Shown here: positions 1 to 11,474 of the stretch, in pieces | Position numbering within the stretch: position 1 is the first letter of the stretch | How the letters are laid out: every line of letters begins with the position of its first letter | Assembly (NCBI GenBank): GCA_003149915.1 | Contig: QAMK01000029.1 | Location: forward strand, 1-11,474 | Direction of reading: 5' to 3' | Length of the DNA stretch: 11,474 nucleotides | Source: Bacillota bacterium | GTDB taxonomy: Bacteria > Bacillota_I > Bacilli_A > RF39 > UBA660 | Position numbers and translations under genes: made by a program | The notes under the pieces: generated by a model | The model's database searches: none | What the model was told of the DNA's origin: nothing | What the model saw: only the letters and a program-made list of their open reading frames with translations

Positions 1-204
1 GCGGATGATGGAGAACTGGCCCAGGGTGACGTACAGGCGGTGTACGTCGCCCCCCATCACCAGCTCCTCCGGGAAGCAGGCACAGATGGACGGGGGAATC
101 TCGCAGCAGCAGTCGCAGGGGCGGCACTCGCACACGTCCACCAGCTTCATGCTGAGGATGATGGGGTCCACCGACTCCACTATCCGCACCAAATAGGTAA
201 ATGG
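1..204 (-). pseudogene. 3' half of interrupted host gene
   Basis: The minus strand is open from the recombinase stop (205-207) to the window edge. Host sequence starts at the TTG codon 192-190 and reads LVRIVESVDPIILSMKLVDV, then a cysteine-rich stretch (CECRPCDCCC, later ICACF), and continues beyond the window. The 5' half lies at 11262-11474. I do not recognise the family. The cysteine cluster could bind metal or form disulfides, but that is inference. The fragment is in the same frame as the recombinase, separated only by the recombinase TGA, so read-through or a TTG/GTG restart could in principle express it. No good ribosome binding site is seen in front of it. Confidence 0.75.
192..194. 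other. attL core (AAT)
   Basis: AAT is shared by the left junction (GCACCAAATAGG) and the right junction (TATCTAATTGTG). Exchange here rebuilds GCACCAAATTGTGG in the host gene with the frame intact. In the excised circle the joined ends would read TTATCT-AAT-AGGTAA, an imperfect dyad centred on the core, as expected for a serine-integrase attP. A 3-bp match alone would be weak; the restored frame and the adjacent recombinase make the call. Confidence 0.75.
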
Positions 205-1713
205 TCAAAAGGTATCCAGGTCATCCAGTTTCTTTAGGACAATGCGGACATTTCCGTCTCTATTAACGCTGATATGGTCAATAATCTTGCGTAAATCCAC
301 ATTTGTCACGGATTCCAACTGCAAGAACCGCTCAATCTCCTGTATGTACTGTTCCACAAAACGGCCTGAATCCTCTTTGACCGCCAGGAAATGCTCATAT
401 TGCTTTAAGTCATAGTCCAGTGACTCCAATTCTTCAAGGATGCTTGCAGTGTGCTTTTTTAGTTCGTTCATTGTGATAATCTCATTGGCGTACATTTCCT
501 GGTATCGCTCTTTTTTCGCCAGTAAAGATTTCTGCCGCCGTTCAATTTTGACCCTATCATCCGAAGATTGCCCACTGGAAAGTCGCTTTTCTATGTCGGA
601 CAGTATTCCAGAAATGAAGTTGCCCTTGTCATGAATAAGGGATGTAAAATACACCTGTATCTCTGTTAGGAGTTCCGCTTCGTTCAGTGTTACATTGTTG
701 TCGCACCGTTCAGCGGTAAACTGGTCATTTGTGGTGCATTTCCAATATATGCGAGTGTTCTTGTAGGTGTAATGTTTCTGGCAGAAAGAGCGTCCGCAGT
801 GCTCACACTTGATAAGGGTGCTGAATAGGTGCTTCGTGCTGTACCTGGCCCCTCTAAACGGCTCCCCGCTATCATACTGCGCCCGGCGTTGGTTTAGCTG
901 TGCCTGCGCCTGTTCAAATACCTCCGGCGGAATAATGGCCCACTCCGGTCTTTCGTGGTGGAAGTGTTCTTCGGCTGGTATATGTACTTGTTTCCCGGTT
1001 AGGTAGTCCGCTATCTCATACTTATGATTGATATAATGGCCGCAATAGATGGAATTGGTCAGCACACGCCGAACTGCTCGGGGATTCCAGTCACACTTAA
1101 ACTTGGTTTTGCGCTGGCTTTGATTTAACCGCAAGCTGATAGTCCGACACCCAAGCCCTTCTTCCAGGTAAAGCCGGTAAATTTCCTTTACCGTTTGTGC
1201 CTCCTGGCTGTTTATCACAAGGGTAAAATTATCAATGCGGTCATAGCCAAAAATCCTCTGCGGAACCCTGCCTTTTTGGGCATTTATCTTCTTTCCGAAC
1301 TTTACCCGCTTGGATAGATTTGCGCTCTCCTCCTGCGCCATAGCCCCGAAGATAGTAAGAACAAATTCAGAATCCGAAAAAGTTTCCATGTTCGCTGTAA
1401 TAAACATGGTATTGATACCTAATGCTTTTAACTCTCGGATACTCTGCAAAAAATCAACGGTATTTCTGGCAAAACGGGAAATGTCCTTCACGACTACGGC
1501 CTCAAACAATCCAAGTTTGGCATCTTTCATCAGCCGCAGAAATTCACTTCGCTTCCGCAGACTTGTTCCTGTAATCCCCTCGTCTGCATACACTTTACGC
1601 AAATTGTGACCGTTTTTCTGCGCATACTCCCCGAAGAATTGCTTTTGGTGTTCCAGGCTGTCTACCTGTTCTTCTTTGTCTGTGGACACACGGCAATAAG
1701 CTACTATATTCAA
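205..1713 (-). CDS. Large serine recombinase (site-specific integrase)
   Basis: A 502-aa large serine recombinase that would catalyse integration and excision through a 5'-phosphoserine intermediate. From the TTG start, the N-terminal resolvase domain (about 1-140) begins NIVAYCRVST with catalytic Ser10 and Arg8, followed by the conserved KDISRFARN motif (Arg80, Arg83). A recombinase domain (about 150-290) follows, then a zinc ribbon with Cys303, Cys306, Cys326 and Cys337, and a helical coiled-coil region (about 370-460) before the C-terminus. The TTG at 1713 is preferred: AAAGGAG lies 11 nt upstream, and the possible extended -10 TATAAT at 1758-1763 would start transcription at about 1751, so an ATG at 1752 would fall at the transcript end. 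Starting there would add 13 residues. The gene abuts attL, and its TGA is in frame with the host gene remnant. Confidence 0.93.
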   Translation of the reverse strand: MNIVAYCRVSTDKEEQVDSLEHQKQFFGEYAQKNGHNLRKVYADEGITGTSLRKRSEFLRLMKDAKLGLFEAVVVKDISRFARNTVDFLQSIRELKALGINTMFITANMETFSDSEFVLTIFGAMAQEESANLSKRVKFGKKINAQKGRVPQRIFGYDRIDNFTLVINSQEAQTVKEIYRLYLEEGLGCRTISLRLNQSQRKTKFKCDWNPRAVRRVLTNSIYCGHYINHKYEIADYLTGKQVHIPAEEHFHHERPEWAIIPPEVFEQAQAQLNQRRAQYDSGEPFRGARYSTKHLFSTLIKCEHCGRSFCQKHYTYKNTRIYWKCTTNDQFTAERCDNNVTLNEAELLTEIQVYFTSLIHDKGNFISGILSDIEKRLSSGQSSDDRVKIERRQKSLLAKKERYQEMYANEIITMNELKKHTASILEELESLDYDLKQYEHFLAVKEDSGRFVEQYIQEIERFLQLESVTNVDLRKIIDHISVNRDGNVRIVLKKLDDLDTF

Positions 1714-1734
1714 ATTGTTGGTTGCTCCTTTCAT

Positions 1735-1751
1735 CAACCAACTCATATCCA
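1735..1751 (-). repeat. 17-bp repeat in recombinase leader
   Basis: TGGATATGAGTTGGTTG on the minus strand lies between the predicted -10 box and the ribosome binding site of the recombinase gene. An exact copy is at 11238-11254 on the plus strand, 9 bp from the right core. The two copies are inverted relative to each other. It may be a recombinase or accessory-factor binding site allowing autoregulation (inference). Confidence 0.6.
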
Positions 1752-1757
1752 CATCGG

Positions 1758-1763
1758 ATTATA
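1758..1763 (-). promoter_or_regulatory. Extended -10 of recombinase promoter
   Basis: The minus strand reads TGCTATAAT, a perfect -10 hexamer with the TGn extension. No strong -35 is present at 17 bp (best TTTATC). The likely transcript start near 1751 is about 38 nt before the TTG start codon. Confidence 0.55.
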
Positions 1764-1824
1764 GCATAAAAAGCAAAGGAGATAAAGGCTTGTCGGCCCT
1801 TATCCCCGTGGTATGAGTTAGTAT

Positions 1825-2175
1825 TTAATTTTCACTTGCGCTGTGATAAGGTGAATCCAACATTGCCAGTAGCTTTTCAAAAATGATTTGCCGTAAAATA
1901 TCTTCAACTGCCTTGTTTTCACTGTTTGGATTGACAAAGGTATACTTGACCTCCACGCTGTTCTTCCTCGTAGGATACGCCCCCTCTCTGGTAAGAGTAT
2001 ATGGGCGATATACCTCTATCATGCTGAAATAGCCTTTCAATCTGGTTATCACTCCAACCCGCTCTCCTGCCTTCGGCGAGGATATGTCCCACTTGACAGC
2101 GGCAAGATAAGCCAAGTGGTTCAAATGGTCAAAGCGATTTATTTTGCGCCAGCTTCCGGCGTGGCGGCTCTGCAC
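1825..2175 (-). CDS. Hypothetical protein, possibly 5'-truncated
   Basis: A 116-aa product that I cannot assign. It starts QSRHAGSWRKINRFDHLNHL and then looks like a mixed alpha/beta soluble domain rich in Arg, Lys and Tyr, with a helical end (AVEDILRQIIFEKLLAML). The only start is a GTG at 2175 with no Shine-Dalgarno in front. The frame stays open for only eight further codons (RNPPYYWV) before a stop. This suggests the C-terminal remnant of a longer protein, or a start dependent on translation from upstream. It lies 72 bp beyond the ATG at 1752, on the same strand as the recombinase, and might feed transcription into it. Codon use looks natural. Confidence 0.55.
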   Translation of the reverse strand: MQSRHAGSWRKINRFDHLNHLAYLAAVKWDISSPKAGERVGVITRLKGYFSMIEVYRPYTLTREGAYPTRKNSVEVKYTFVNPNSENKAVEDILRQIIFEKLLAMLDSPYHSASEN

Positions 2176-2373
2176 CCAATAATATGGGGGATTTCTTCAT
2201 TTTTTCGGATAAAGCCTCAAAAAGCCCTTAACCATCAATATTTCTCTGGACAAAATCATTGATTTTCAAATTGATAAGCCGTTGCGGCACAATCATTGCT
2301 TGTCCAGAAAACAAAATGTTGACATGAGATGTGAGATATTTTTCACGGCTCTGAAAGTGAAAAAAGCCTCCTG
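2176..2373. other. Intergenic region with inverted repeat and leftover open frame
   Basis: TCTGGACAA at 2245-2253 and TTGTCCAGA at 2300-2308 form a 9-bp inverted repeat separated by 46 bp. On the minus strand one frame is open from about 2436 (inside the end of the next gene upstream) to a TAA at 2228-2230. Its tail (MIVPQRLINLKINDFVQRNI..., ATG at 2296) looks protein-like. No ribosome binding site precedes that ATG. It may be a gene remnant or chance. No terminator with a T-tract was found after the 2374 gene. Confidence 0.35.
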
Positions 2374-2748
2374 TTAAGCCTCTTTCTTTACTTTTCTTTG
2401 CTGTTTCATCTCTGGATTATCCAGGATAATTAAATGTCGTTCGTCATTTCCTGCAATAATTACATAGGCGTTCCCCTGTTCATTTCCCCGAATATGTTCA
2501 ATGCCCTGTACATCACTAATACGGATACGTCCGTTTTCTGCACCATCCTTCTGCGAATATAACACTAACGTTTTAACATACCCGTACAATCCAGAAAAAA
2601 AGTCCCATCTTGCACTATCAAATCTAATCGTAGCACGTAAACTTCCGGTTGCTTCCGCCGTAGCTTCATTCATGCCAGCTTCATATCGTCCAGCATGGCA
2701 ACGATTAACTTCTGCAATCAAATCATCAACTGTTTTTATTTTTACCAC
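2374..2748 (-). CDS. Hypothetical protein (124 aa)
   Basis: Unassigned soluble protein. It starts MVKIKTVDDLIAEVNRCHAG, contains a GSLRATIRFDSARWDFFSGL segment, an alternating beta-rich core (YVKTLVLYSQ, GRIRISDVQGIEHI, NAYVIIAGNDERHLIIL) and a very basic lysine-rich tail (QQRKVKKEA). There is no signal peptide or membrane segment. The GTG at 2748 was chosen because AGAGGT lies 6 nt upstream. A GTG at 2772 in the same frame would add eight residues but has no site. The basic tail could favour nucleic-acid contact (inference). It is probably transcribed with the other minus-strand genes of the left arm. Confidence 0.65.
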   Translation of the reverse strand: MVKIKTVDDLIAEVNRCHAGRYEAGMNEATAEATGSLRATIRFDSARWDFFSGLYGYVKTLVLYSQKDGAENGRIRISDVQGIEHIRGNEQGNAYVIIAGNDERHLIILDNPEMKQQRKVKKEA

Positions 2749-2795
2749 ATCTTTACCTCTCACATAATACACTAGTCATACGTACAGAAACCCAT

Positions 2796-2873
2796 TTTGG
2801 ACACGCTGTTTGTCCAAATCAATTTTGAAACCCTTGCGGCTCAAGGGTTTGAAGGGCTTTCTTTATAAAGAAA
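2796..2873. repeat. Three consecutive dyads in non-coding DNA
   Basis: The gap 2749-3015 holds no convincing gene but is highly structured. TTTGGACA (2796-2803) and TGTCCAAA (2811-2818) form an 8-bp stem with a 7-nt loop. AAACCCTTG (2828-2836) and CAAGGGTTT (2842-2850) form a 9-bp stem with loop CGGCT. TTTCTTTATAAAGAAA (2858-2873) is a perfect 16-bp palindrome. A further TGTCCAAA occurs at 2965-2972. No T-tract follows the hairpins, so they are unlikely to be simple terminators. An operator cluster, origin or transfer origin is possible but unproven. Confidence 0.55.
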
Positions 2874-3015
2874 ATAAGGCAATGAAATTTAGTAGCTTGA
2901 AATTAAGGCGCGAGAGCGTAGTGTAAACGGAGCGGAAGCAAATTTGGTCCTGACAAAAACCGTGTGTCCAAAAACTTTAGTATGATGAAGGGGAGTGATT
3001 CTGTTTTGGATTTCA

Positions 3016-3204
3016 CTATACATCGACACGCTTGCTTCGTTTAGATTTATATTGGGGACAAGAAATTACGATAGTCCTAAAGCTCTGCTTACATTCGTGA
3101 ACACAACGACGGCATAGATCATTGTATTCTTTGCGCCCTTTCTCATTAAGGAAAAAGTTCCACTCTTCTTTTTCCCTTTTGGACATCCTGGGAATAGGTA
3201 CCAC
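3016..3204 (-). CDS. Small Cys-rich protein, possible zinc knuckle
   Basis: A 62-aa basic protein (56 aa if translation starts at the ATG 3186-3184). Four cysteines, Cys31, Cys34, Cys38 and Cys49 (DLCRRCVHECKQSFR...ISCPQY), make a plausible zinc site. The N-terminal part (SKREKEEWNFFLNEKGRKEY) is helical and charged, and the C-terminus is Lys/Arg-rich. AGAAGGTGG lies just upstream: too close to the GTG at 3204 and rather far from the ATG at 3186, so the start is uncertain. A minus-strand promoter at 3302-3329 would serve it. Function is unknown; a DNA- or RNA-binding accessory role is inference. Confidence 0.6.
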   Translation of the reverse strand: MVPIPRMSKREKEEWNFFLNEKGRKEYNDLCRRCVHECKQSFRTIVISCPQYKSKRSKRVDV

Positions 3205-3301
3205 CTTCTTTCCAACTGTTATATTTCGGGGTGATTCTGACGCTTTTTTCGTTCTCTGTGCGCTTTTTACGCAATAAGCATATAATTCCTTCTACCCATA
3301 C

Positions 3302-3329
3302 ATTATCGTGTATTTTAGAACGCTTTCAA
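3302..3329 (-). promoter_or_regulatory. Promoter for minus-strand left-arm genes
   Basis: The minus strand carries TTGAAA (3329-3324), a 16-bp spacer and GATAAT (3307-3302). Each hexamer matches the sigma-A consensus at five of six positions. It points to the 3016-3204 gene with a leader of about 90-110 nt. It lies in the 3205-3425 gap, where I see no gene. Confidence 0.5.
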
Positions 3330-3425
3330 AACATTTTCTGTTATCCGTTGCCCTATACTTCTTAATAAAACTATGATTTGTTTGTGTGGTTACAATTCAA
3401 AAACGGCGTGGTTAAGCCATCCTTC

Positions 3426-3695
3426 TTACCAGTGCGTTATCCGTTTTGGCTTACCTGCTCGCTCAATAATGCGGTCATAAATCCAGTCCATACAATCGCC
3501 ACATACATTCAGCGTTACCCGCTCACCATCATGCTTGGAACCACGGTTAGCTTCAAGTGTAATTAGGGATGGGCCATATATGTCGTCCTGGTCACATATA
3601 TCGCACTCAAAGCCAGACCATATAGAATCCATGCTTTCTTCTTCATTTTCCTCCGAAATCATTTTCAAAACATCGTCATAGTTCGTAAGCTCCAT
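3426..3695 (-). CDS. Small acidic CxxC-CxxC protein, possible zinc finger
   Basis: An 89-aa protein beginning MELTNYDDVLKMISEENEEE. Cys31-Cys34 (FECDICDQDD) and Cys65-Cys68 (NVCGDCMDWIYDRI) are spaced like a four-cysteine zinc ribbon with a 30-residue connector. The N-terminal 25 residues are strongly acidic and the C-terminus is basic (GKPKRITHW). The start at 3695 has GGAGG 7 nt upstream (3703-3707); a longer reading from 3767 would add 24 residues encoded by GC-rich leader DNA and is rejected. Function unknown; proteins of this layout are common as small accessory genes of mobile elements. Upstream lies the tandem repeat and large-loop terminator region. Confidence 0.7.
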   Translation of the reverse strand: MELTNYDDVLKMISEENEEESMDSIWSGFECDICDQDDIYGPSLITLEANRGSKHDGERVTLNVCGDCMDWIYDRIIERAGKPKRITHW

Positions 3696-3770
3696 TTTGT
3701 TCCCTCCCTTCTGCGGCTCTGCCGCTTTTCTTTTTGGCTGGACATTGTTCCTGACTCCTCGGAGCACTGC

Positions 3771-3885
3771 ACCCTTGGGCGGAGAACATCAGCACGCCCT
3801 TTCCGCTTCTAACCGCAAGGGGTGTACCCTGGGCGGCTGGGAAGCGGCGGGGCCGTCCCTGTCCGCCCCTAACCGCAAAGGGTCA
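3771..3885. repeat. Degenerate tandem repeat, two ~55-60 bp units
   Basis: Unit 1 begins ACCCTTGGGCGG (3771) and ends CTAACCGCAAGGGGTG (to about 3824). Unit 2 begins ACCCTGGGCGG (3826) and ends CTAACCGCAAAGGGTC (to about 3884). The middles differ, but both are GC-rich. This block makes up much of the 3696-4149 gap and is richer in GC than its surroundings. No gene is supported here. It would form part of the 5' leader of the 3426-3695 gene if transcription starts further right. Confidence 0.55.
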
Positions 3886-3951
3886 ACCATCTTGTCAGCA
3901 ACTCAATATCTCTATGTCACATTGTCAAGGTACACGCCATCCAGAACGAAA

Positions 3952-4003
3952 AAAGACACACTCCCCGCAAGGCACTTATGGCCTCATGGGTAAGTGTGTC
4001 TTT
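3952..4003 (-). terminator. Large-loop terminator or attenuator
   Basis: AAAGACACACT (3952-3962) pairs perfectly with AGTGTGTCTTT (3993-4003) over 11 bp, enclosing a 30-nt loop that contains a smaller GGC...GCC pairing. Read on the minus strand the stem is followed by a T run (GTCTTTTTTCG), fitting intrinsic termination of transcripts leaving the 4150-4383 gene. The big loop is unusual for a plain terminator. Confidence 0.6.
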
Positions 4004-4149
4004 AACTTCTGTCGGCGACATTTTCAACTTACGGCGCTATTATAGCAAACCAATTTAGGCAGGTCAACCCAATGATATAAACAAAACCGATTTAGATTTC
4101 CATTAGTCCAGAGATAGAATCGGGCCGTGCCTATGCGGTGAACCGACTA

Positions 4150-4383
4150 CTAAGAAATATCCTGCTGGACAGCTTCGGAAATACCAAAACCACCCCCGGC
4201 CTGTGTCTGCTCCCGCTCCATACGTTCCCTGACAGCTTGCAGGACATACGCTTGTACTGACTGACCAGCATTAGCGGCGGCGGCTCGTATCGTTGCCCCT
4301 ACCTCTTGTGTCGGACGTATCATTATATTGTCTTGTCTCCGATTGTAATTTGTGCTTGCCCTCTTTTGTGCTTCTGTTGACAT
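4150..4383 (-). CDS. Ribbon-helix-helix DNA-binding protein, likely autorepressor
   Basis: A 77-aa protein with the layout of Arc/CopG-type ribbon-helix-helix regulators. A basic N-terminus (STEAQKRASTNYNRRQ) precedes a short beta strand (DNIMIRPT, about 18-25), helix A (EVGATIRAAAANAG) and helix B (SVQAYVLQAVRERMEREQ). A Gly-rich linker and a tail follow. RHH proteins dimerise and insert the paired strands into the major groove. The ATG at 4383 has GGGGGTG 5-6 nt upstream; a 10-residue longer reading from 4410 has no site. Immediately upstream are six CTGATAT/ATATCAG half-sites, which also cover the divergent plus-strand promoter. Repression of itself and of the 4678-6061 operon is therefore likely, but inferred. 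An antitoxin role is an alternative; no toxin is evident. Confidence 0.75.
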   Translation of the reverse strand: MSTEAQKRASTNYNRRQDNIMIRPTQEVGATIRAAAANAGQSVQAYVLQAVRERMEREQTQAGGGFGISEAVQQDIS

Positions 4384-4410
4384 GGTATCACCCCCATTAG
4401 ATTTTACCAT

Positions 4411-4505
4411 CTGATATAAATATCAGTAAACTGATATAATGCACAAAAATATCAGTTAACTTTTATGCATTATTCCATCTTCACAAACTATCAGTTAACT
4501 GATAT
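4411..4505. promoter_or_regulatory. Operator cluster of CTGATAT half-sites
   Basis: Half-sites are CTGATAT 4411-4417, ATATCAG 4420-4426, CTGATAT 4431-4437, ATATCAG 4449-4455, TATCAG 4489-4494 and CTGATAT 4499-4505. The first pair makes an inverted repeat with a 2-bp centre. The last pair makes the 16-bp palindrome TATCAGTTAACTGATA (4489-4504). Arrays of short half-sites are typical targets of RHH dimers, and the RHH gene starts 28 bp away. Confidence 0.7.
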
Positions 4506-4508
4506 ACT
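4480..4508 (+). promoter_or_regulatory. Promoter of plus-strand SprT operon, overlapped by operator
   Basis: TTCACA (4480-4485), 17-bp spacer, TATACT (4503-4508); each hexamer matches consensus at five of six positions. The 16-bp palindrome at 4489-4504 occupies the spacer and touches the -10 box, so a bound repressor would block RNA polymerase. The transcript would run about 160 nt before the first gene. Confidence 0.65.
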
Positions 4509-4534
4509 AAAAGCACAACAGGGGAACACCCCGA

Positions 4535-4654
4535 CAGGTCAAGCCAAGGTGGACGATAGCATCAAGACCACCAGATAAGACCGGAACCGGATACGGGAGA
4601 TTGTGACGCACTTAGAAGAACGCTATGCCGTAAAGCCCTCCGGCGCTTGACCTG
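4535..4654 (+). other. Structured leader of the SprT operon
   Basis: CAGGTCAAGC (4535-4544) pairs with GCTTGACCTG (4645-4654), a 10-bp stem closing about 100 nt. Inside are GGTGG...CCACC and CCGGAACCGG pairings, and GGGGAACACCCC lies just before it (4521-4532). The stem ends 13 nt before the AAGGAAGG of the first gene. One frame (IREIVTHLEERYAVKPSGA, stop 4648-4650) is open for only 23 codons without a start and may be a gene remnant instead. Confidence 0.4.
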
Positions 4655-4677
4655 GAAGAATGAAAGGAAGGTTGAAT

Positions 4678-4953: not shown

Positions 4954-5020
4954 AACAAGCCCCTTGCACAACACGCCGACCAAAGCAAGAGTGCAAGAGA
5001 CTTGACCCACACTCACCAAA

Positions 5021-5059
5021 GAGGGAGCGGGTATATTCAGTATAGCCGCCCGCTCCCTC
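5021..5059 (+). other. Strong intercistronic hairpin
   Basis: GAGGGAGCGGG (5021-5031) pairs perfectly with CCCGCTCCCTC (5049-5059). The 17-nt loop has an inner TATA/TATA pairing. No T-tract follows on the plus strand, so it is more likely an RNA-stability or processing element, or a weak attenuator, than a full terminator. A 7-bp CTTGCAC/GTGCAAG inverted repeat lies before it in the same 148-bp gap. Confidence 0.5.
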
Positions 5060-5101
5060 AAAATCAACTACAATTTGTTTGAATGAAAGGGAGCGCACAC
5101 C

Positions 5102-5749
5102 ATGAAAGAACTCACCAAGTATAGCCGCCTTGCCGGTTATCTGGAAAAACTCTATGATAAGCTGAATGCCGACTTTTTCAATGGTGAACTTGTACGGCCT
5201 GTTATCACCATCCAAAGCAGTAGCCGCAGTTATGGGCATTACACCTTATATGACGCATGGAGCGTTAAGGGAGAAGGGTATAAAGAAATCAATATTGCCG
5301 CCGGGACACTGAACCGGCCCATTGAGTACACGGTCTGTACATTGCTCCATGAAATCTGTCACCAGTATAACAACGAGATTGCACACGTCCAGGATTGTAG
5401 CCGTGGAGGAACCTACCATAACAAATATTTTAAGCGAACAGCCGAAGCCCACGGCCTCACTGTTACCCGTTCAGAGAAATACGGATGGAGCATAACAAGC
5501 CCATCTGATGAACTGCTCGACTGGATATTGAACAACGATATTCAAGAAATCAAGTTGAACCGCAACGAGTATCACGGTATCCGCATTGCAGGGGGTAACG
5601 CCGCCGCCGAAAGTGGAGCGCCTACACCCTCCGCACGGCCTAACCACAACCACCGCTATGTCTGCCCCCACTGTCACAATATCGCCCGCTCCGGTAAGCC
5701 TATCCGCCTTATCTGCGGCGATTGTCTGCAACCTATGATAGAGGGCTGA
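5102..5749 (+). CDS. SprT-like zinc metalloprotease domain protein
   Basis: A 215-aa SprT/Spartan-like protein. The zincin motif is HEICH (His83, Glu84, His87) in TVCTLLHEICHQYNNEIAH. The probable third zinc ligand is His106 in GGTYHNKYFKRTAEAHG. A fold-typical N-terminal part (LADFFNGEL-like segment, then SYGHYTLYDAW) comes before it. The C-terminus carries a four-cysteine zinc ribbon, CPHC (188-191) and CGDC (205-208), after a Pro/His-rich linker. There is no signal peptide, so it acts in the cytoplasm. Eukaryotic Spartan cleaves DNA-protein crosslinks; bacterial SprT-like proteins are poorly characterised, and this substrate is unknown. GGGAG lies 8 nt before the ATG. The next gene starts 4 nt after the stop, so translation is probably coupled. 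Confidence 0.9.
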   Translation: MKELTKYSRLAGYLEKLYDKLNADFFNGELVRPVITIQSSSRSYGHYTLYDAWSVKGEGYKEINIAAGTLNRPIEYTVCTLLHEICHQYNNEIAHVQDCSRGGTYHNKYFKRTAEAHGLTVTRSEKYGWSITSPSDELLDWILNNDIQEIKLNRNEYHGIRIAGGNAAAESGAPTPSARPNHNHRYVCPHCHNIARSGKPIRLICGDCLQPMIEG

Positions 5750-6094: not shown

Positions 6095-6104
6095 TGTCGT
6101 TTGC

Positions 6105-6698
6105 CTATCCAACCAATTTGTAAAACGTGCTTTTCTTCATACCAGTCAGCCGCATGGCCTCTACGGCGGTTATTTCCCCTGTGTGCCACCGCTCTATTAC
6201 TTCATTCCAGTTATCAGGCTTAACAGCTCTTGGGCGGCCTAGGTGCTTACCTTTAGTCCTTGCCGCCGCGATCCCCTCCGCCTGCCGCTGGCGTAACGTT
6301 TCCCGCTCCTGCTGGGCAATGGAGGATAAAACCTCAATCAAAATATTGTTTACCATTTCAAGAACCCATTCTTGCCCCGCTGGATACTCAATCATCGTTG
6401 TGGGCAAGTCCAGCACCTTCAAACGGATACCATTTTCTTTGAAGTATTGCAACTCGTTTTTAATATCTGCTTTGTTCCTGCTTAGACGGTCAAGGGATTT
6501 TACCACCAAAGTATCCCCACGGCGCAGTAAGGCCGCTTTAAGGGCTGTGTATCCCGCCCGGTCTAAGTTCTTGCCTGATTCCTTGTCGGTGATTATATCC
6601 CGCTCCTGCGCCCCTAGAGAGCCAAAGGCGGCAAGCTGGCGGTCAAGATTCTGTTCTTTACTGGATACCCTGGCATAGTAGTAAGTCCGATTTTCCAT
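6105..6698 (-). CDS. Small serine recombinase (resolvase/invertase family)
   Basis: A 197-aa Tn3 resolvase/Hin invertase-type recombinase. The N-terminus YYYARVSSKEQNLDRQL carries catalytic Ser12 and Arg10, LDRLSRN (69-75) supplies the second arginine pair, and the E-helix follows (about 100-140, EMVNNILIEVLSSIAQQERE). The DNA-binding end has GRPRAVKPDNW then a helix-turn-helix (ITAVEAMRLTGMKKSTFYKL). It is full length for the family. AAAGGGG lies 9 nt before the ATG. It could resolve cointegrates or invert DNA; no nearby pair of res- or hix-like sites was recognised. A 34-codon open frame ends 27 nt upstream on the same strand. Confidence 0.9.
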   Translation of the reverse strand: MENRTYYYARVSSKEQNLDRQLAAFGSLGAQERDIITDKESGKNLDRAGYTALKAALLRRGDTLVVKSLDRLSRNKADIKNELQYFKENGIRLKVLDLPTTMIEYPAGQEWVLEMVNNILIEVLSSIAQQERETLRQRQAEGIAAARTKGKHLGRPRAVKPDNWNEVIERWHTGEITAVEAMRLTGMKKSTFYKLVG

Positions 6699-6725
6699 CA
6701 GAAAGCGCCCCTTTCCTGTTTCTGC

Positions 6726-6830
6726 TTATAGCTTAACAGGCGGGGCGCAATCTGCACACTTCAAGTTTCCAGAAAAGTCATTCAATTTTTGGATATGTTC
6801 AGAAAGTAAATCAGGGTACTTGACAGACAC
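6726..6830 (-). CDS. Possible 34-aa ORF before the small recombinase
   Basis: A GTG-started frame directly after an in-frame TAA reads SVKYPDLLSEHIQKLNDFSG then NLKCADCAPPVKL, with a CxxC pair. Composition looks protein-like, and it is on the strand and just upstream of the recombinase (27-nt gap). No convincing ribosome site precedes the GTG. It may be a leader peptide, the C-terminal scrap of a lost gene, or chance. It is the only coding-like content in the 6699-6880 gap. Confidence 0.3.
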   Translation of the reverse strand: MSVKYPDLLSEHIQKLNDFSGNLKCADCAPPVKL

Positions 6831-6880
6831 TTAACAAGGCCGCTTTCTTACCGTCTCCAAAGGTAGAACTTTTAGGAATA

Positions 6881-7294
6881 CTATTTCTGGAATACAAGGG
6901 TTACACCGGATGGAATATCATAGTAGATGTTTTTTATATCATAACTTAATAACTTCTTTTCACCTCCATCTGAACAAAGTTCAATGAAGGTATCGCCAAC
7001 GGTATATGTACCCGACACCTCAACAGGTGTTCCTTCCTCTGTGCGGTGTAAGTATACTGTCCCGGTATTCGTAAAAATCAGGCTGGCATCATTCCACTCT
7101 AAAAAGGAATATCCTCGTAGTTCACAAAGTTCTGCAACATTAGAGGTTTTATATGTTTTACCATCGTATTCATAGCCGTTGACTTTCCATGTACCAACAA
7201 CTGAATTTCCACCAAAAGCATTAAAGGATATAATTACCAGGCAAACACATAGCGCACAGATAATAATAGCTAACCTTTTACTTTTTGTTTTCAT
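6881..7294 (-). CDS. Membrane-anchored lipocalin-like protein
   Basis: A 137-aa protein with one N-terminal hydrophobic segment (about 8-27, LAIIICALCVCLVIISFNAF) after a basic start MKTKSKR. It is a membrane anchor or uncleaved signal; no clear lipobox. The remainder resembles small lipocalin-like domains: an opening VVGTWKVNGYEYDGKTY, then beta strands (ASLIFTNTGTVYLHR, VSGTYTVGDTFIELC) ending in GVTLVFQK. Such domains usually bind a small ligand or act as assembly factors; the ligand is unknown. It is the last gene of a three-gene unit, 23 nt after the 7318-7716 gene. AGAGG abuts the ATG, a poor spacing; GGGG 10 nt upstream may help. Confidence 0.65.
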   Translation of the reverse strand: MKTKSKRLAIIICALCVCLVIISFNAFGGNSVVGTWKVNGYEYDGKTYKTSNVAELCELRGYSFLEWNDASLIFTNTGTVYLHRTEEGTPVEVSGTYTVGDTFIELCSDGGEKKLLSYDIKNIYYDIPSGVTLVFQK

Positions 7295-7317
7295 CCTCTA
7301 TAATCCCCATTGTAAAA

Positions 7318-7716
7318 TTAGGCATGATTTCTCTTTGACCGCCAGAACAGAAAAAGGCTAGTAGCAATGGCGAGTACGCATATCACGATGATTGAAATGC
7401 AACCTGTTTTTACCACCATTACGGTGCTCAAATCAAAATTTAGTATATCTTCCTCAAAGAGAATTGCTCCAAGCCCAATGGGGCTCTTTCCTATCACACA
7501 ATTATAGGCATTTTGGGCGCAGGCAAAAACGAAACCAGAAGGAATTAGGAGAACTGCCGCAACAACAGCAATCACAATATATATTTTGCGGGATAGCTTC
7601 GATTTCGATGAAATAGGCTTGCCGCCATTGCCCGGAGCGTTGACCGCACATCCACAGTTTGGACATACCACGGCATAGTCAGAAATGTCCTTGCCGCAAT
7701 TCTTACATTTTTTCAC
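7318..7716 (-). CDS. Zinc-ribbon membrane protein
   Basis: A 132-aa protein starting with a cytoplasmic zinc ribbon, CKNC (Cys4, Cys7) and CPNC (Cys18, Cys21). A Gly/Ser/Lys linker follows, then a first membrane helix (about 45-66, YIVIAVVAAVLLIPSGFVFA), an external loop with two cysteines, and a second helix (about 100-125), ending in a basic tail RSKRNHA. The GTG start overlaps the stop of the upstream gene (GTGA), with AAAGAGG 7 nt before it, so translation is coupled. Zinc-ribbon plus membrane proteins of this type are common in Firmicutes; the function is unknown. The neighbours suggest an envelope-related module. Confidence 0.7.
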   Translation of the reverse strand: MKKCKNCGKDISDYAVVCPNCGCAVNAPGNGGKPISSKSKLSRKIYIVIAVVAAVLLIPSGFVFACAQNAYNCVIGKSPIGLGAILFEEDILNFDLSTVMVVKTGCISIIVICVLAIATSLFLFWRSKRNHA

Positions 7717-7967
7717 TGTTGTACCTCTTTCCCTTTTGCAACGTCTTTTAACAATTCAATCATTTGCTGATTTTGACTCTGCTGGATTAAATCTGGTAAA
7801 GCCATGACATAAATACCACCCGCAATACCAAGCCAGAAACACATGGCCCATGCGTGGGCATCATCTCCATAGCCCTTTCTCACAGCGACTTTCCGCATGA
7901 AGTTGGCAAAGATAAATTGAACAAGAAGAATGAAGCAGAGTAGAAAAATTATAACTGCATACCTCAT
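7713..7967 (-). CDS. Small membrane protein, first gene of envelope module
   Basis: An 84-aa protein with an N-terminal membrane helix (about 3-23, YAVIIFLLCFILLVQFIFAN), a basic and polar loop (RKVAVRKGYGDDAH), a second hydrophobic segment (about 42-58, WAMCFWLGIAGGIYVMAL) and a Gln-rich cytoplasmic tail. The ATG at 7967 has AAAGGA 9 nt upstream; a TTG three codons earlier lacks a site. It overlaps the next gene by 4 nt. A TACAAT -10-like box lies just upstream on the minus strand (near 7990), without a good -35. Function unknown. Confidence 0.65.
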   Translation of the reverse strand: MRYAVIIFLLCFILLVQFIFANFMRKVAVRKGYGDDAHAWAMCFWLGIAGGIYVMALPDLIQQSQNQQMIELLKDVAKGKEVQQ

Positions 7968-8077
7968 ATGACCCAATCCTTTTCTTAGATTGTATTCTTA
8001 ATTAGATATTGCTTTTAGAATATAGTTTTAGCATATCAGAAAAGATACAATTTAGCAAGAGGGAGGGTAATGGCGAT

Positions 8078-8257
8078 ATGGCAAAGTTTACACCCAGGAA
8101 GTTTGAAAAAGAAGTAATATCCATGCGGATTTCTTCGGAAGTCTTAGAAAAGATTGACGATAAAGCGGCTAAAATTGGTATATCCAGGAATGAACTGCTG
8201 AATCAGTGCATACAATTTGCGCTCGACAACATGGAGGACAATCCAAAGAACGATTAA
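8078..8257 (+). CDS. Small ribbon-helix-helix protein
   Basis: A 59-aa RHH (CopG/Arc-like) protein. A basic start (MAKFTPRKFEK), the beta strand EVISMRIS (about 12-19), helix A (SEVLEKIDDKAAKIG) and helix B (SRNELLNQCIQFALDNME) match the fold closely. It should bind DNA as a dimer. The ATG at 8078 follows GGGAGGG by about 10 nt; the longer frame from 8009 adds 23 non-conserved-looking residues and is rejected. It is divergent from the envelope module (gap 7968-8077) and could regulate it. It ends at a strong terminator. It differs in sequence from the 4150-4383 RHH protein. Confidence 0.75.
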   Translation: MAKFTPRKFEKEVISMRISSEVLEKIDDKAAKIGISRNELLNQCIQFALDNMEDNPKND

Positions 8258-8289
8258 GACCGCCCTGTTTGTTGCAGGACGGTCTTTTT
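8256..8289 (+). terminator. Intrinsic terminator after RHH gene
   Basis: AAGACCGCCCTG (8256-8267) pairs with CAGGACGGTCTT (8275-8286), 12 bp with one mismatch, loop TTTGTTG, followed by TTTTT (8285-8289). It overlaps the stop codon end of the 8078-8257 gene and separates it from the convergent 8294-8620 gene. Confidence 0.85.
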
Positions 8290-8293
8290 CTGC

Positions 8294-8620
8294 CTACTTC
8301 TGGAAAATCAGCGTGTAGGACCGGTCATAGTGCTTTGCCCCAAAATCGCCGCATAGCACGGTAATTATTGTGCCCAACACACTGGATTCTGTATCGACTT
8401 TCACACACTGTATCCTGTCCAGGCACAAAACGTTTTTCCCTGACTTCAAGTAAAGTATGTTTGGATTCTCATATATCTCCATAGCCGGAAAGGCCATCTC
8501 GACCTTGCAAGGGTCTGCACACTGATACCACTCCTGATTTTCACTGTGGTAGACAATACGGGTAAATCGTTCTTTCTCGCAGTATTTCTTGAACTCGCTG
8601 ACGGTCAATGTTTTCTTCAT
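8294..8620 (-). CDS. Hypothetical protein (108 aa)
   Basis: An unassigned soluble protein. It starts MKKTLTVSEFKKYCEKERF and then looks largely beta: TRIVYHSENQEWYQ, EMAFPAMEIYENPNILYLKS, KNVLCLDRIQCVKV, LGTIITVLCGD and SYTLIFQK. Five cysteines are scattered without a CxxC motif. There is no signal peptide or membrane helix. GGGGGTGAG lies about 6 nt before the ATG. It is convergent with the small RHH gene and has its own upstream region with a GC hairpin (8655-8672). No function can be given. Confidence 0.7.
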   Translation of the reverse strand: MKKTLTVSEFKKYCEKERFTRIVYHSENQEWYQCADPCKVEMAFPAMEIYENPNILYLKSGKNVLCLDRIQCVKVDTESSVLGTIITVLCGDFGAKHYDRSYTLIFQK

Positions 8621-8654
8621 CGTTTCTCACCCCCCTCTGCAAGTAATAGAAACA

Positions 8655-8672
8655 GGGGCGGAAAACCGCCCC
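8655..8672. other. GC-rich hairpin
   Basis: GGGGCGG (8655-8661) and CCGCCCC (8666-8672) form a 7-bp stem with loop AAAA. On the minus strand it is followed by TGTTTC, a weak T-tract. It may limit read-through into the 8294-8620 gene. Confidence 0.4.
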
Positions 8673-8696
8673 CGCTCCTATGGTGGTGCTTGCGTT

Positions 8697-8795
8697 CTAT
8701 GCGTCCTTCCATACTTTGATTTTACCATCCACCGATGCCAACGCACACTTCAAAATCAGCGGCTCAAACTTCAATTTTTCCTTATCGGATAAAGT
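8697..8795 (-). pseudogene. Possible C-terminal gene remnant
   Basis: On the minus strand 32 codons are open after a TGA (8796-8798) and end at TAG 8697-8699. They read LSDKEKLKFEPLILKCALAS then VDGKIKVWKDA, a protein-like tail with no start codon except an internal TTG. It lies in the 290-bp gap 8621-8910. It may be a scrap of a gene lost in earlier rearrangement, or chance. Confidence 0.25.
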
Positions 8796-8806
8796 TCAAA
8801 AATCCG

Positions 8807-8824
8807 CAAATCGTGTTTGATTTG
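8807..8824. promoter_or_regulatory. Candidate XRE operator dyad
   Basis: CAAATC (8807-8812) and GATTTG (8819-8824) are inverted around a 6-bp centre, about 87 bp before the XRE start codon. Spacing fits a helix-turn-helix dimer site, but there is only one copy. Confidence 0.3.
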
Positions 8825-8910
8825 TGCTGATACCCCTTTGCTACAAAATGCGTCACGCCGCGACACCAAAAGAAGCGCCATTTGCGGTATCTTTAGGGAG
8901 GTATACCAAA

Positions 8911-9204
8911 ATGGCCTATTTGCAGATTGCGGCTCGGCTGAAACAGCTACGCATGGAGCGGGGCATGACCCAGGCGCAAGTCGCCCGCCATGTGGGGGTG
9001 ACCCGCTCGGCGTTCTCTGCCTATGAAAACGGCACACGCTATCCAAGTTATGATACCCTTATCAATCTGGCGCACCTGTTCAGCGTTTCCACGGATTTTC
9101 TGCTTTGTATAGATAACCGGCACTTTGTAGATGTTTCCGGGCTGACGGCGGAAGAAACAGCGGCAATCACAAATATGGTCAACCTGTTACGCTCCAAAAA
9201 ATAG
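8911..9204 (+). CDS. XRE-family transcriptional regulator
   Basis: A 97-aa Cro/CI-type regulator. The helix-turn-helix domain occupies about 8-62 (RLKQLRMERGMTQAQVARHV, then TRSAFSAYENGTRYPSYDTLINLAHLF). It continues with STDFLLCIDN, the usual end of the XRE fold, and a short helical tail (LTAEETAAITNMVNLLRSKK) probably for dimerisation. GGAGG lies 9 nt before the ATG at 8911. The longer frame from 8824 would add 29 residues and is rejected. The surface-protein gene starts 16 nt after the stop, so the two are likely co-transcribed and the regulator may control the pair. Confidence 0.88.
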   Translation: MAYLQIAARLKQLRMERGMTQAQVARHVGVTRSAFSAYENGTRYPSYDTLINLAHLFSVSTDFLLCIDNRHFVDVSGLTAEETAAITNMVNLLRSKK

Positions 9205-9220
9205 GAAAGGTCGCTGTCCA

Positions 9221-11122
9221 ATGAGAAGAAAATCCCTGCTGTCGTTCATGCTTTCACTGTCCCTGTTGCTCTCTGCATTGCCCCTCACGGCCTATGCCAC
9301 AGCGGAAGATGATGCTCCCCCCACTGACCCGCCGCCTGTATCGGAACCTACGGAAGATAGCCCACAGATACCGGAAGTCACTACCCTGGAAGAACTGCTT
9401 GCCGCTATTGATGCCGCTGAATCTGGGGATACAATAGCTTTAAGCAACCAAATTTACATTGACCAAAATTGTGTTATCGGCGATACAGAAAAAGTGATTA
9501 CGCTTATTCCAGGCGACACCTTTACCGCTGGAACTTTTTTGACCGTTTCCAGTTTTGCCGAACAGGACGTTACCATTCAAAATTTGAACCTTGACGGGCA
9601 GGGGGCGGCCCTCTCTGCCGTTGTTGTAAACCACACATCACTTGACGATATTGTTGGACAATTTGAAATGTCCAATATCAATATCTCAAACTTTGCTTCC
9701 ACAAACCGACCTGTTATTCTGTCTGCCGTGACCGCCACAGTTAGCAACTGCACTTTCAGCGACAATACAGGCAGACGGACGGCGGGGATTGAATTACCTT
9801 CAAACAGCACGGCTATCATTGAAAACTGTACCTTTACCAACAATACCTCTGCCGGGAACGGCGGCGCTATCCTCTGTATGGGGCAACTGGAACTTAAAAA
9901 CAGCCAAATTTCCAATAATCAAGCGGGGGTAGAGGTTGACCGTCCATGTGTTGGTGGAGGTATTTATATCAGCAATACCGGTTCTGGACTACTATATAAC
10001 TGCGCGATTACAGGCAACAATGCTAATCTAGGCGGCGGTATTTCCACCGATGGAAAGTTAGAAATTGTTGATTCCCTTATCTTTGGGAATACGGGGGCAA
10101 TGGGCGCAAGCGACATCTACGCCCCCAGCAACACGCCGCTGTCCATTTCCTATACAAACGGCATGGATTCTATTTATACGGAAAATGACCCCGTGGGGTA
10201 TTATGCTGACTACTTTGAAAATGCTTTTGACCCGGAGAACAACGCAGTATTTTTAGGGGAAAGTCTCTCCATGGAAAAGGTTGATACCCACTTCGGAGCA
10301 AAGTTTGTGTTTGCCTCCGATTTGCCAGAAGAACCAGAACCCGAACCGATACCGCCGGAACAGGACACGCCGGATTCCTCCGACACTCCATCTGACCCCG
10401 AACCTGTTAAACCTTCTGACCCTGGTACCCCTGATAAGCCAGATACACCGGACAGCCCCGATGAATCAGATGAACCGGAAGAACCCGAACCGCCAGAGGA
10501 ACCCGAACACTCCAAAGACCCGGAACCGGATACCTCCGATGAAGATACCCCCGCCCCTTCCAGGCCGCACCGGCCCAGCCACAGCGATACCCCGGCGATA
10601 GAAATAACGGAACCTGTTAAGCTGGTGCTGTCCTGCGGCGACGCTGTTCTTGACCCCGCTGTCCCTCTGTTCCTCGCTGGATATGGAGATGGGCAAGCAC
10701 ACGAAAATGACCTCATAACCAGGGCGCAAATTGCCGTTCTGCTGTACCGCTCCCTAACTCCCGCAAGCGTGGCTATGCTGTCCGGTGATTATGATACCTT
10801 TTCCGACGTGGAGCGGGGCACATGGTACTACGATGCTGTTTCCGCTCTGGTCTCTGCGGGCATTGTAAGCGGATATAACGGTCTTTTCCGTCCAGACGAT
10901 ACCCTGACCTCCGGGGAACTGATAACCATGCTGACACGCTTTGTAGAGGCCAAAACCGTCCCCATGCCATGGGTATCCTATCAAGGCCATTGGTCATATC
11001 CAAGCATTGTAACCGCCGTTGCCTATGGCTGGATTGACGATGCTTCGGAGATAGACCCTGACCGCCCCGTTACCAGGGGAGAAGCGGTTGCATGGGTCAA
11101 TTCAATTTTTGAACTCTGTTAA
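9221..11122 (+). CDS. Exported beta-helix protein with SLH cell-wall anchor
   Basis: A 633-aa surface protein. It has a signal peptide at 1-26 (MRRKSLLSFMLSLSLLLSAL, then PLTAYA before TAEDD). After a short Pro-rich spacer a parallel beta-helix follows, about 50-300. It has repeated rungs such as VSNCTFSDNT, IENCTFTNNTSAGNGGAIL, LKNSQISNN, LLYNCAITGNNANLGGGIST and VDSLIFGNTGAMGASDIY, typical of pectate-lyase-like and polymorphic-repeat adhesins. A Pro/Glu/Asp/Ser linker (about 368-460) spans the wall. Three S-layer homology units form the C-terminus (about 472-514, 525-576, 584-633; FSDVERGTWYYDAVSALVSA is diagnostic), binding wall polysaccharide. No catalytic residues are obvious, so adhesion or carbohydrate binding is more likely than lyase activity. 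AGGAAAGG lies 10 nt before the ATG. Confidence 0.88.
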   Translation: MRRKSLLSFMLSLSLLLSALPLTAYATAEDDAPPTDPPPVSEPTEDSPQIPEVTTLEELLAAIDAAESGDTIALSNQIYIDQNCVIGDTEKVITLIPGDTFTAGTFLTVSSFAEQDVTIQNLNLDGQGAALSAVVVNHTSLDDIVGQFEMSNINISNFASTNRPVILSAVTATVSNCTFSDNTGRRTAGIELPSNSTAIIENCTFTNNTSAGNGGAILCMGQLELKNSQISNNQAGVEVDRPCVGGGIYISNTGSGLLYNCAITGNNANLGGGISTDGKLEIVDSLIFGNTGAMGASDIYAPSNTPLSISYTNGMDSIYTENDPVGYYADYFENAFDPENNAVFLGESLSMEKVDTHFGAKFVFASDLPEEPEPEPIPPEQDTPDSSDTPSDPEPVKPSDPGTPDKPDTPDSPDESDEPEEPEPPEEPEHSKDPEPDTSDEDTPAPSRPHRPSHSDTPAIEITEPVKLVLSCGDAVLDPAVPLFLAGYGDGQAHENDLITRAQIAVLLYRSLTPASVAMLSGDYDTFSDVERGTWYYDAVSALVSAGIVSGYNGLFRPDDTLTSGELITMLTRFVEAKTVPMPWVSYQGHWSYPSIVTAVAYGWIDDASEIDPDRPVTRGEAVAWVNSIFELC

Positions 11123-11130
11123 TACAAGAG

Positions 11131-11158
11131 AAAGTCGGTGCACAGAGGCACCGGCTTT
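11131..11158 (+). terminator. Terminator after SLH protein gene
   Basis: AAAGTCGGTGC (11131-11141) pairs with GCACCGGCTTT (11148-11158) around a 6-nt loop with one T-G wobble, followed by TCTC. It is 8 bp past the stop codon. Confidence 0.7.
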
Positions 11159-11171
11159 TCTCATGGGCAAA

Positions 11172-11201
11172 AGTATAGTATACTGTTATCAGTCTTTGAT
11201 A
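11172..11201. repeat. Short dyads near right end
   Basis: AGTATA-G-TATACT (11172-11184) is a 13-bp palindrome. TATCA (11187-11191) and TGATA (11197-11201) form a second dyad. Both lie in the gene-free right end, 60-95 bp from the core, and could be accessory-protein sites. The 11159-11261 stretch holds no gene. Confidence 0.4.
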
Positions 11202-11237
11202 GCTCAACGATTCATAACAATACGCTTAAAAGAACAT

Positions 11238-11254
11238 TGGATATGAGTTGGTTG
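11238..11254 (+). repeat. 17-bp repeat beside attR
   Basis: TGGATATGAGTTGGTTG is identical to the minus-strand sequence at 1751-1735 in the recombinase leader. Here it ends 9 bp before the AAT core, inside the arm that a large serine recombinase would contact. Confidence 0.65.
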
Positions 11255-11261
11255 TTCTTAT

Positions 11262-11474
11262 CTAATTGTGGGCGGTTATTTCCACCACCGCGGTGGGCAG
11301 GCTGCGGGTGGGCAGGTTCTGCACATCCAGGGCCTTCTCCTGGCCCAGGGAGGAGAACACCTTGGCGCTCCCCTCGCTGCCGAACAGGATGACCCGCTTG
11401 TCAAAGACGGCCAGGCCGCTGATCTCCACCGGCCGGGCGGCCCCCACGAAGGCGTCGGCGGTGATGCGGTAGAA
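11262..11474 (-). pseudogene. 5' half of interrupted host gene
   Basis: Minus-strand frame open from the window edge to TAG 11264-11262. It reads FYRITADAFVGAARPVEISG, ISGLAVFDKRVILFGSEGSA, KVFSSLGQEKALDVQNLPTR and SLPTAVVEITAHN. The real start is outside the window. The insertion adds no foreign residues: the stop begins inside the core. Base composition is GC-rich like 1-192. The continuation is 1-192. The family is not recognised; the beta-rich N-terminal part and Cys-rich C-terminal part suggest a structural or envelope protein, which is inference. Confidence 0.75.
11264..11266. other. attR core (AAT)
   Basis: Right-hand copy of the 3-bp core, in TATCTAATTGTG. To its right the host reading frame resumes on the minus strand. 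TAG at 11264-11262 stops the truncated host protein exactly at the junction. Confidence 0.75.

Follow-up and report, generated by a model that had tools for sequence, protein, structure and literature searches.

The window, the whole 11,474-nucleotide stretch of bacterial DNA analysed here, carries a mobile element that is, judged from its genes, of a non-phage type with its own large serine recombinase. It interrupts a conserved clostridial gene, and we consider it probable that this is an intervening element of the skin or gin kind, which the mother cell cuts out so that the host gene is rebuilt. The sequence shows the junction together with its site-specific family, footprints of promoters, constraint on both gene halves and the small protein with its pattern, and relatives suggest precise excision with reconstitution of the gene during sporulation. 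No head, tail or packaging genes were found among 10 window proteins compared with PHROGs or 8 further frames compared with Pfam only (frame 1825-2175 was in both test sets). The YCRVS motif of the large recombinase is what we take to be the catalytic serine motif.

The preliminary description had identified the flanks (11262-11474 and 1-192, minus strand) as two halves of one gene, and relatives confirm this: the joined query was matched by 34 of 40 relatives, 31 of which run uninterrupted across the join and are the intact homologues it had proposed to search for. Its view that the target is a protein gene rather than a tRNA agrees with a tRNA search of the window, which found none, and its attribution of a site-specific insertion to the left-end recombinase was also right. 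The ends themselves have to be moved. Copies of AAT do stand at 192-194 and 11264-11266, and a join made at them does keep the frame open, but these copies are not the ends of the element: AAT is one of many 3-base matches between the ends, and 154 of 420 nearby joins are likewise stop-free. The ends also share two 5-base matches, TCCAC (176/11281) and CACCA (187/11283). Compared with the uninterrupted relatives, the AAT join gives 11 residues too many (ITAHNLVRIVE), the CACCA join 3 and the TCCAC join 0 (PTAVVESVDPIIL); the AAT join removes the element yet leaves 33 bp of the attP inner arms. The consensus in these relatives is P(T/I)A(V/I)VE-x-V(D/E)P. VE, one residue and then V(D/E)P follow each other at 19 of the 19 loci that are uninterrupted here (L001-L019), the AVVExVDP region is exactly 8 residues long in all 56 proteins of alignment A1, TAHN is present in 0 of 240 homologues, and YLVRIVE occurs only beside the 3' halves of split loci.

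The common core is GTGGA (TCCAC at 176-180 and 11281-11285), not AAT, and the element measures 11,105 bp instead of 11,072 bp (Table 1). The AAT core, the 11,072-bp element and the restored ITAHNLVRIVES are ruled out by uninterrupted homologues without the 11 residues; empty sites joined differently, which the preliminary description had itself named as counting against it, are what these relatives present. GTGGA stands at both ends in the window and in Flavonifractor sp. An10 and once in the empty site, which comes from other species. It coincides with the VE (Val-Glu) codons of uninterrupted homologues, and its precise removal restores the frame, in sequence LPTAVVESVDPIILSM. In one split genome (G020), the core differs between the two ends. 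The dyad previously reported at the joined ends belongs to the outer arm of attP and not to the core. In the corrected attP, the best dyad is centred inside GTGGA and is weak (12 of 22 pairs, equalled by 488 of 2000 shuffles). Neither an excision product nor an unoccupied site from the window's own strain or species was seen, and the predicted attP junction was not found in the viral contigs searched.

Table 1 Features of the window
Feature	Position	Strand	Remarks
Host gene 3' half, residues ~151-212 of homologue P0005	1..183	-	66% identity to P0005
Host gene 5' half ending in PTAVVE (residues 89-154 of P0005), followed by ITAHN from the element and a stop	11277..11474	-	71% identity
attL core GTGGA, crossover placed within	176..180	-	common to 11281-11285; matches homologues' VE codons
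attR core GTGGA	11281..11285	-	common to 176-180
Element including one core copy, 11,105 bp	176..11280		counterpart in Flavonifractor sp. An10, with these ends, 12,194 bp
AAT, left copy, in attP arm, outside core	192..194		
AAT, right copy, in attP arm, outside core	11264..11266		
Large serine recombinase, 515 aa from listed GTG; ATG ~1734 likelier	205..1752	-	Resolvase, Recombinase, zinc ribbon; motif YCRVS
Extended -10 TGCTATAAT, 5' of recombinase	1758..1766	-	sigma-A type by eye
Candidate recombination directionality factor FVNPN...LRQIIFEKLL, ~43 aa from an inferred GTG start	1825..1956	-	C-terminal part of 116-aa frame 1825-2175
Sigma-E-like promoter GCATGAT-N14-CATATACT, 5' of candidate directionality factor	1996..2024	-	pattern set after inspection
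Cargo: SprT-like protein	5102..5749	+	
Further serine recombinase, small (197 aa) and of the invertase type	6105..6698	-	
Cargo: helix-turn-helix regulator	8824..9204	+	
Cargo: 633-aa protein, beta-helix and S-layer-homology domains	9221..11122	+	

The host protein, of ~277 aa, had no Pfam family above the cut-off and no fold match. Its gene was found in 98 of 181 SpoIVA-positive versus 2 of 62 SpoIVA-negative genomes (p=1.3e-14), or 83/181 versus 2/62 (p=3.3e-11) without 15 weak matches (E>1e-10), a co-occurrence partly due to shared ancestry. A sigma-K-like promoter, AC-N14-18-CATANNNT(A/G), lies in 66 of 71 host-gene upstream regions (shuffle mean 0.6, maximum 3, in 100 shuffles), a set that includes at least two (L001, L008) in which a split at codon ~32 makes the chosen start false. 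A C. difficile sigma-K promoter is described as a -10 of CATATAAT and a -35 of AC (PMC3789822). From the SpoIVA co-occurrence and this promoter, which are strong but indirect evidence, we read the host gene as a putative sporulation gene whose expression is very probably confined to the mother cell at a late stage.

Counting the window, 25 genomes carry the gene split at one and the same codon; three of these (L029, L030, L032) show only the 3' half, and the contigs L027, L028 and L031, which by length and content belong to G001, G020 and G006, are counted once. Next to the 3' half, 22 of the split genomes have a related serine recombinase (42-99% identity), on the same strand in 21 and in the opposite orientation in G271. 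In the DNA examined, the outer parts of the locus, G295 showed no recombinase and G319 only distant ones (26-28%). Other recombinase lineages have used codons ~32 and ~70-77 of the host gene. Between the window and Flavonifractor sp. An10, the aligned parts of the element are 95-99% identical and the flanks 79-90%, and this greater likeness of the element points to a recent transfer that used the same site; the An10 recombinase is 99% identical to that of the window.

Every one of the 17 elements with an unshortened recombinase encodes a small protein ahead of it, and 0 of the 5 with a shortened one do, as found with a looser pattern; a stricter version found it in 9 of the 17. We regard it from this distribution as a candidate recombination directionality factor. 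The small-protein motif was absent from a phage-record scaffold of 6.4 kb that carries a full-length relative (43%). A sigma-E-like promoter, by a pattern chosen post hoc after looking at the sequences, lies 5' of the small protein in 9 of 16 elements (shuffle mean 0.16, maximum 2, in 500 shuffles) and is absent in 7, with 6 of the 9 matches coming from one clade; a near-copy of the window (L033) was left out of the 16 and kept among the 17.

Selection on the gene halves bears on the unlikely alternative of an ordinary integrative element that inactivates a dispensable gene and is excised rarely and non-developmentally. The window and An10 elements did move recently between species, and the gene is missing from 83 of the 181 SpoIVA-positive genomes and is thus not universally needed. 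However, both halves are free of stops in all six split species tested, those with a nagB-nagA element, and the split-split dN/dS medians of 0.033 and 0.061 for the two halves lie below the 0.142 and 0.247 of 29 intact species, a comparison that covers one clade, ignores kinship and includes any time before insertion. These values show both halves to be under strong purifying selection in the six species. The nag element also seems to be inherited, since the dS of nagA/nagB (0.16-0.65 among G041, G130, G179, G232, G234 and G220; up to 1.03 with the nagB of G236) is comparable to that of the host-gene halves in nag species (0.20-0.97). The retention of the sigma-K-like promoter at split loci likewise argues against simple inactivation.

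Stochastic excision in growing populations, partly as in the yin element of C. botulinum, with spores arising from already excised cells, is very unlikely. The yin circle and intact yabG were reported to be amplified at every time point (PMC10747680), whereas here the sigma-E-like sites point to timing, and excision would cost a lineage the element's nagA, the sole copy over the cut-off in 7 of the 7 g22 genomes that carry nag cargo (it lies on another contig in G236). Two uninterrupted g22 genomes, G221 and G235, have no nagA above the cut-off, so nagA is dispensable in the genus. It is slightly less probable still that the halves are separate polypeptides that assemble, a permanent split needing no excision. 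The 3' half may have its own start downstream of the recombinase in some elements (138 aa in L102, 145 aa in L128), but the element-derived stretch before it in the window lacks an ATG (PFTYLVRIVE after a stop), the split falls within a strand predicted with moderate confidence (residues 149-154), and the 3' half would be without the sigma-K-like promoter. The AAT-bounded version has its open frame in its favour and, with the 11 residues in no homologue examined, practically no chance of being correct.

For developmental excision in the mother cell, we infer the timing of expression, the activity of the directionality factor and the excision itself as follows. The element, sitting at the GTGGA (Val-Glu) codons, would be held integrated by a recombinase made from an ordinary promoter. 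Early in the mother cell, sigma-E would drive transcription of the small protein just upstream of the recombinase, and this protein, acting as a directionality factor, would enable the recombinase to recombine attL with attR. The element would be released as a circle, the gene would regain PTAVVE-SVDPI, and sigma-K could then transcribe the entire rebuilt gene. The element would stay in the forespore chromosome, and descendants would lose nothing.

Programmed gene reconstitution in sporulation has been described for a small set of genes, sigK, spoVFB, spoVR, spsM, gerE and yabG (PMC5595907, PMC10747680, PMC5025042, PMC4191935). The gin element in gerE of Bacillus cereus ATCC10987, whose rearrangement is reported to need the 42-aa GirX (PMC5595907), resembles the window element in its absence of phage genes, its serine recombinases, the split gene, here apparently a mother-cell sporulation gene, the short common core and a small factor (here a candidate); unlike it, gin is 28.6 kb long with three recombinases, lies in another host gene and bacterial class, and has been shown to excise, whereas here excision is read from sequence only. 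In the C. difficile skin element in sigK, the small factor CD1234 is under sigma-E (PMC5025042); a recombinase that is not sporulation-specific, a small directionality factor under sigma-E and a rebuilt mother-cell gene would be common to both, but skin is prophage-like and hits the sigma-K gene, in contrast to an apparently sigma-K-controlled gene here. SP-beta in spsM of B. subtilis has a vegetative SprA and a 58-aa SprB with a mother-cell promoter, and the recombinase and this small protein suffice (PMC4191935). A mother-cell-type promoter directly 5' of the small gene is shared, whereas SP-beta is a full prophage in a polysaccharide gene. Like yin (yabG, PMC10747680), the window element is clostridial, lies in what appears to be a sporulation gene and has a recombinase with the same three Pfam domains; yin is prophage-like and described from one strain, whereas the insertions found here span many genera and use three or more codons of a single gene.

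A broader reading, which we put somewhat short of even, is that, throughout the Clostridia, this sigma-K-type gene persists as a developmentally split gene, repeatedly entered by unrelated elements, some of them permanent or capable only of excision. If so, the entry points of the unrelated serine-recombinase elements would be codons ~32, ~70-77 and ~153; some elements would now be permanent, inherited DNA bearing the host's only full nagA, and others would have shrunk to 1.3-2.3 kb, their recombinase lacking the zinc ribbon and coiled coil and, along with these, the directionality factor, so that excision would be all it could carry out. On this reading, spore-formers would carry out an intron-like splicing of DNA in a mother-cell gene. 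One uncharacterised gene of gut commensals is struck time and again here by unrelated recombinases, and the elements grade from recently mobile to minimal ones apparently inherited. Genome annotation will take the gene for fragments in many gut genomes, as in 11 of the 19 genus-g1 genomes having it. The shortened recombinases without a partner protein are natural candidates for one-way excision enzymes, and the series opens two questions to test: what draws such elements to mother-cell genes, and by what steps a recombinase turns into a dedicated excisase.

The two flanks of the element are halves of one minus-strand gene, as the preliminary description proposed: matches were obtained in 34 of 40 relatives, and in 31 of these the queried stretch is unbroken. 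The junction itself had to be moved. Joining the halves at the shared AAT (192-194 and 11264-11266) adds ITAHNLVRIVE, 11 residues seen in no homologue examined, and comparison with uninterrupted homologues went against this join, since all 19 loci unbroken at this point (L001-L019, the DNA of most inspected) read VE, one residue and then V(D/E)P, an empty-site comparison made with relatives of other species. The frame is indeed open across the AAT, but this is weak evidence, as stops are likewise lacking from 154 of 420 joins in the vicinity. TAHN occurs in none of 240 homologues, and the AVVExVDP stretch is exactly 8 residues long in 56 of 56 aligned homologues. On split loci, the 5′ half is followed by xTAHN-stop (or a diverged equivalent) and the 3′ half is preceded by element-derived sequence, (Y)LVRIVE in close relatives; these two stretches are therefore part of the element. 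Both junctions share the core GTGGA, read as TCCAC on the plus strand; joined there, the halves read LPTAVVESVDPIILSM, and the corrected ends give an insertion of 11,105 bp instead of 11,072 bp. A second 5-base match, CACCA, was rejected as the core, because its join would leave three extra residues. The element of Flavonifractor sp. An10, with the same ends, is 12,194 bp long.

Coordinates of features in the window
Feature	Position	Strand	Remark
Core, left copy (TCCAC)	176-180	+	
Large serine recombinase	205-1752	minus	left end of element
16-base motif, inverted copy	1735-1750	-	just before recombinase start
Sigma-E-like promoter	1996-2024		upstream of small frame
Segment without match in An10 element	2325-3364		
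Ribbon-helix-helix-like protein	4150-4410	-	weak score
Segment without match in An10 element	6874-7991		
Ribbon-helix-helix-like protein	8066-8257	+	weak score
Beta-helix + S-layer-homology protein	9221-11122	+	possible surface trait carried by element
16-base motif	11239-11254	+	near right end
Core, right copy (TCCAC)	11281-11285	+	

Among the cargo are, besides the S-layer-homology/beta-helix protein, regulators, an SprT-like protein and a second small serine recombinase; no phage head, tail or packaging genes were found among ten window proteins tested against PHROGs. Of the two small ribbon-helix-helix-like proteins, one is ParD/MobA-like and the other CopG-like; they could be related to mobilisation or regulation. 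In three aligned blocks the window and An10 elements share 94.8-97.3% identity, with 99.1% for the left 2 kb and 96.8% for the right 2.3 kb, and about 2.2 kb of the window element has no match in that of An10. The host flanks are less alike, with 78.8% identity in 179 columns and, for part of the right flank, 90.4% in 114 columns, indicating a recent transfer of the element from one species to another at the same site.

The host gene is broken at the window's codon, about 153, in 25 genomes, each counted once: the window, G001, G006, G020, three named assemblies in which the 3′ half alone was seen (L029, L030, L032), nine genomes of genus g22, G058, G171, G271, G284, G295, G318, G319, G339 and G390. 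Several of them have the two halves on separate contigs. Beside the 3′ half, 22 of the 25 have a recombinase related to that of the window (42-99% identity), encoded on the same strand as the gene in 21; of the remaining three, G295 had no related recombinase in the DNA examined, G319 had distant ones only (26-28%), and the DNA examined for G236 covered the 5′ side. Judged from match coordinates, the inserts span about 1.3 to 32 kb. In the 32-kb insert of G257 (L110/L111), the recombinase is apparently split, its first ~69 residues lying about 22 kb from the remainder, with three other serine recombinases between the parts.

The same gene is also interrupted elsewhere. Genus g1 has it in 19 of 20 genomes, interrupted in 11 of the 19, nine times at codon ~32 and three times at codon ~153 (G006 counted at both). 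In seven of the nine, the codon-32 3′ part adjoins a recombinase from a different lineage, 23-27% identical to that of the window; in G003 and G011 none was found within the roughly 1 kb upstream examined. G019 (L140) has a prophage inserted at codon ~32, carrying genes for portal, large terminase and DnaB-like helicase. Codon ~70-77 is the break point in G057, G322 and G195, the last with its parts on two contigs. Further recombinases (21-24% identity) accompany the G057 and G322 splits, and the G057 insert encodes an AMP-ligase and a ketoacyl synthase. G319 (L135, L136) and G006 (L034, L139) each contain two breaks, and rebuilding the gene there would need the exit of both inserts.

The host gene product (~277 aa, with conserved cysteines) gave no Pfam or NCBIfam family above cut-off and no fold match. 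In a class sample of 243 genomes, the gene was present in 98/181 SpoIVA-positive versus 2/62 SpoIVA-negative genomes (Fisher p = 1.3e-14), or 83/181 versus 2/62 minus 15 weak matches (p = 3.3e-11), and in an order sample of 197 genomes in 156/185 versus 5/12 (p = 0.0016), all these tests being inflated by shared ancestry. All nine class-sample genomes with the codon ~153 split have SpoIVA. Of 71 distinct regions upstream of the gene, 66 contain AC-N14-18-CATANNNT(A/G), typically as GCACC-N15-CATA(C/G)AATGG some 50-75 bases ahead of the start (mean 0.6 and maximum 3 in 100 shuffles), and the motif is common to split and intact copies. It fits a C. difficile sigma-K promoter (−10 CATATAAT, −35 AC) as described in passages of PMC3789822.

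The recombinase is directly preceded by a short frame that has the motif (V/F/I)(D/N)(P/R)N...L..I(I/L/V).(E/D)KL. Its loose form occurs in 17/17 elements with an unshortened recombinase (window and An10 being nearly identical, and L130 keeping the first part only) and in 0/5 with a shortened one (L107, L127, L128, L129 and L132). The shortened recombinases stop behind the Recombinase domain, at 275-277 residues from their catalytic serine motif and without a zinc ribbon (Pfam for L127); that of L107 ends about 100 residues early. The coiled-coil region of the recombinase is the presumed site of action of directionality factors (passages of PMC5025042); joint loss of the coiled coil and the small protein is thus what such a role would predict, and the small frame is a candidate directionality factor. 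The motif is not in MT838016.1, a full-length relative outside this site (43%). L127, L128, L129 and L132 encode ~280-aa serine recombinases without zinc ribbon or coiled coil; the inserts of L127-L129 measure 1.3-2.3 kb and carry GAF or HAD-type cargo, and the L132 recombinase is in the opposite orientation.

A sigma-E-like promoter precedes the small frame in 9 of 16 upstream regions, including the window's (shuffle control: mean 0.16, maximum 2 of 500), by a pattern fixed after inspection, with six of the nine matches from one clade. An extended −10, by eye of the ordinary type, stands before the recombinase in the window and its close relatives. The 16-base motif GGATATGAGTTGGTTG stands near the right end of the window element and again, inverted, just ahead of the recombinase start, and other versions match between the same two places in L115/L116 (TGGATATAGGTTGGCT) and L035/L036 (TGATATAGGTTG), as if a single regulator bound both; the tested nag or short elements had no match.

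Seven g22 genomes carry nag cargo beside the 5′ half, nagB with nagA in six and nagB alone visible in G236, and the insert measures 3.8 kb in the five of these six where a single contig spans it. Neither half contains a stop in the six g22 nag-element genomes with both halves available. Pairwise dS of the halves in six split g22 genomes is 0.20-0.97, and the median dN/dS of split copies is 0.033 (5′ half) and 0.061 (3′ half), against higher values of 0.142 and 0.247 in 29 intact g22 species (kinship ignored). The dS range of nagA and nagB overlaps that of the halves, which fits inheritance of the nag element rather than repeated capture; its recombinase evolves faster. The element's nagA is the only one over the family cut-off in 7/7 nag-cargo genomes, six at the locus and that of G236 on a separate contig. 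Germ-line loss of the element would cost that nagA, whereas loss from the doomed mother cell costs nothing; G221 and G235, uninterrupted g22 members, have no nagA over cut-off, and the weight of this argument is therefore to be taken with caution.

In SP-beta, SprA is vegetative and SprB comes from a mother-cell promoter, the two together being sufficient (passages of PMC4191935); the recombinase and small protein of this element would form a like circuit, here read from sequence, and the parts of PMC5025042 on C. difficile skin describe the same circuit as proposed here. Literature on intervening elements, serine recombinases and sporulation in Oscillospiraceae, Flavonifractor or metagenomes yielded nothing on this gene among the titles and abstracts listed, and in passages of a large recombinase survey (PMC10083194) sporulation appeared only in a reference title. 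The element probably works like skin, gin, SP-beta/spsM and yin, and its membership of that kind is only probable because its sequence features agree with or support it while excision in sporulation is a prediction. What would be new here are the host gene, the several independent insertion codons and the minimal forms that look inherited.
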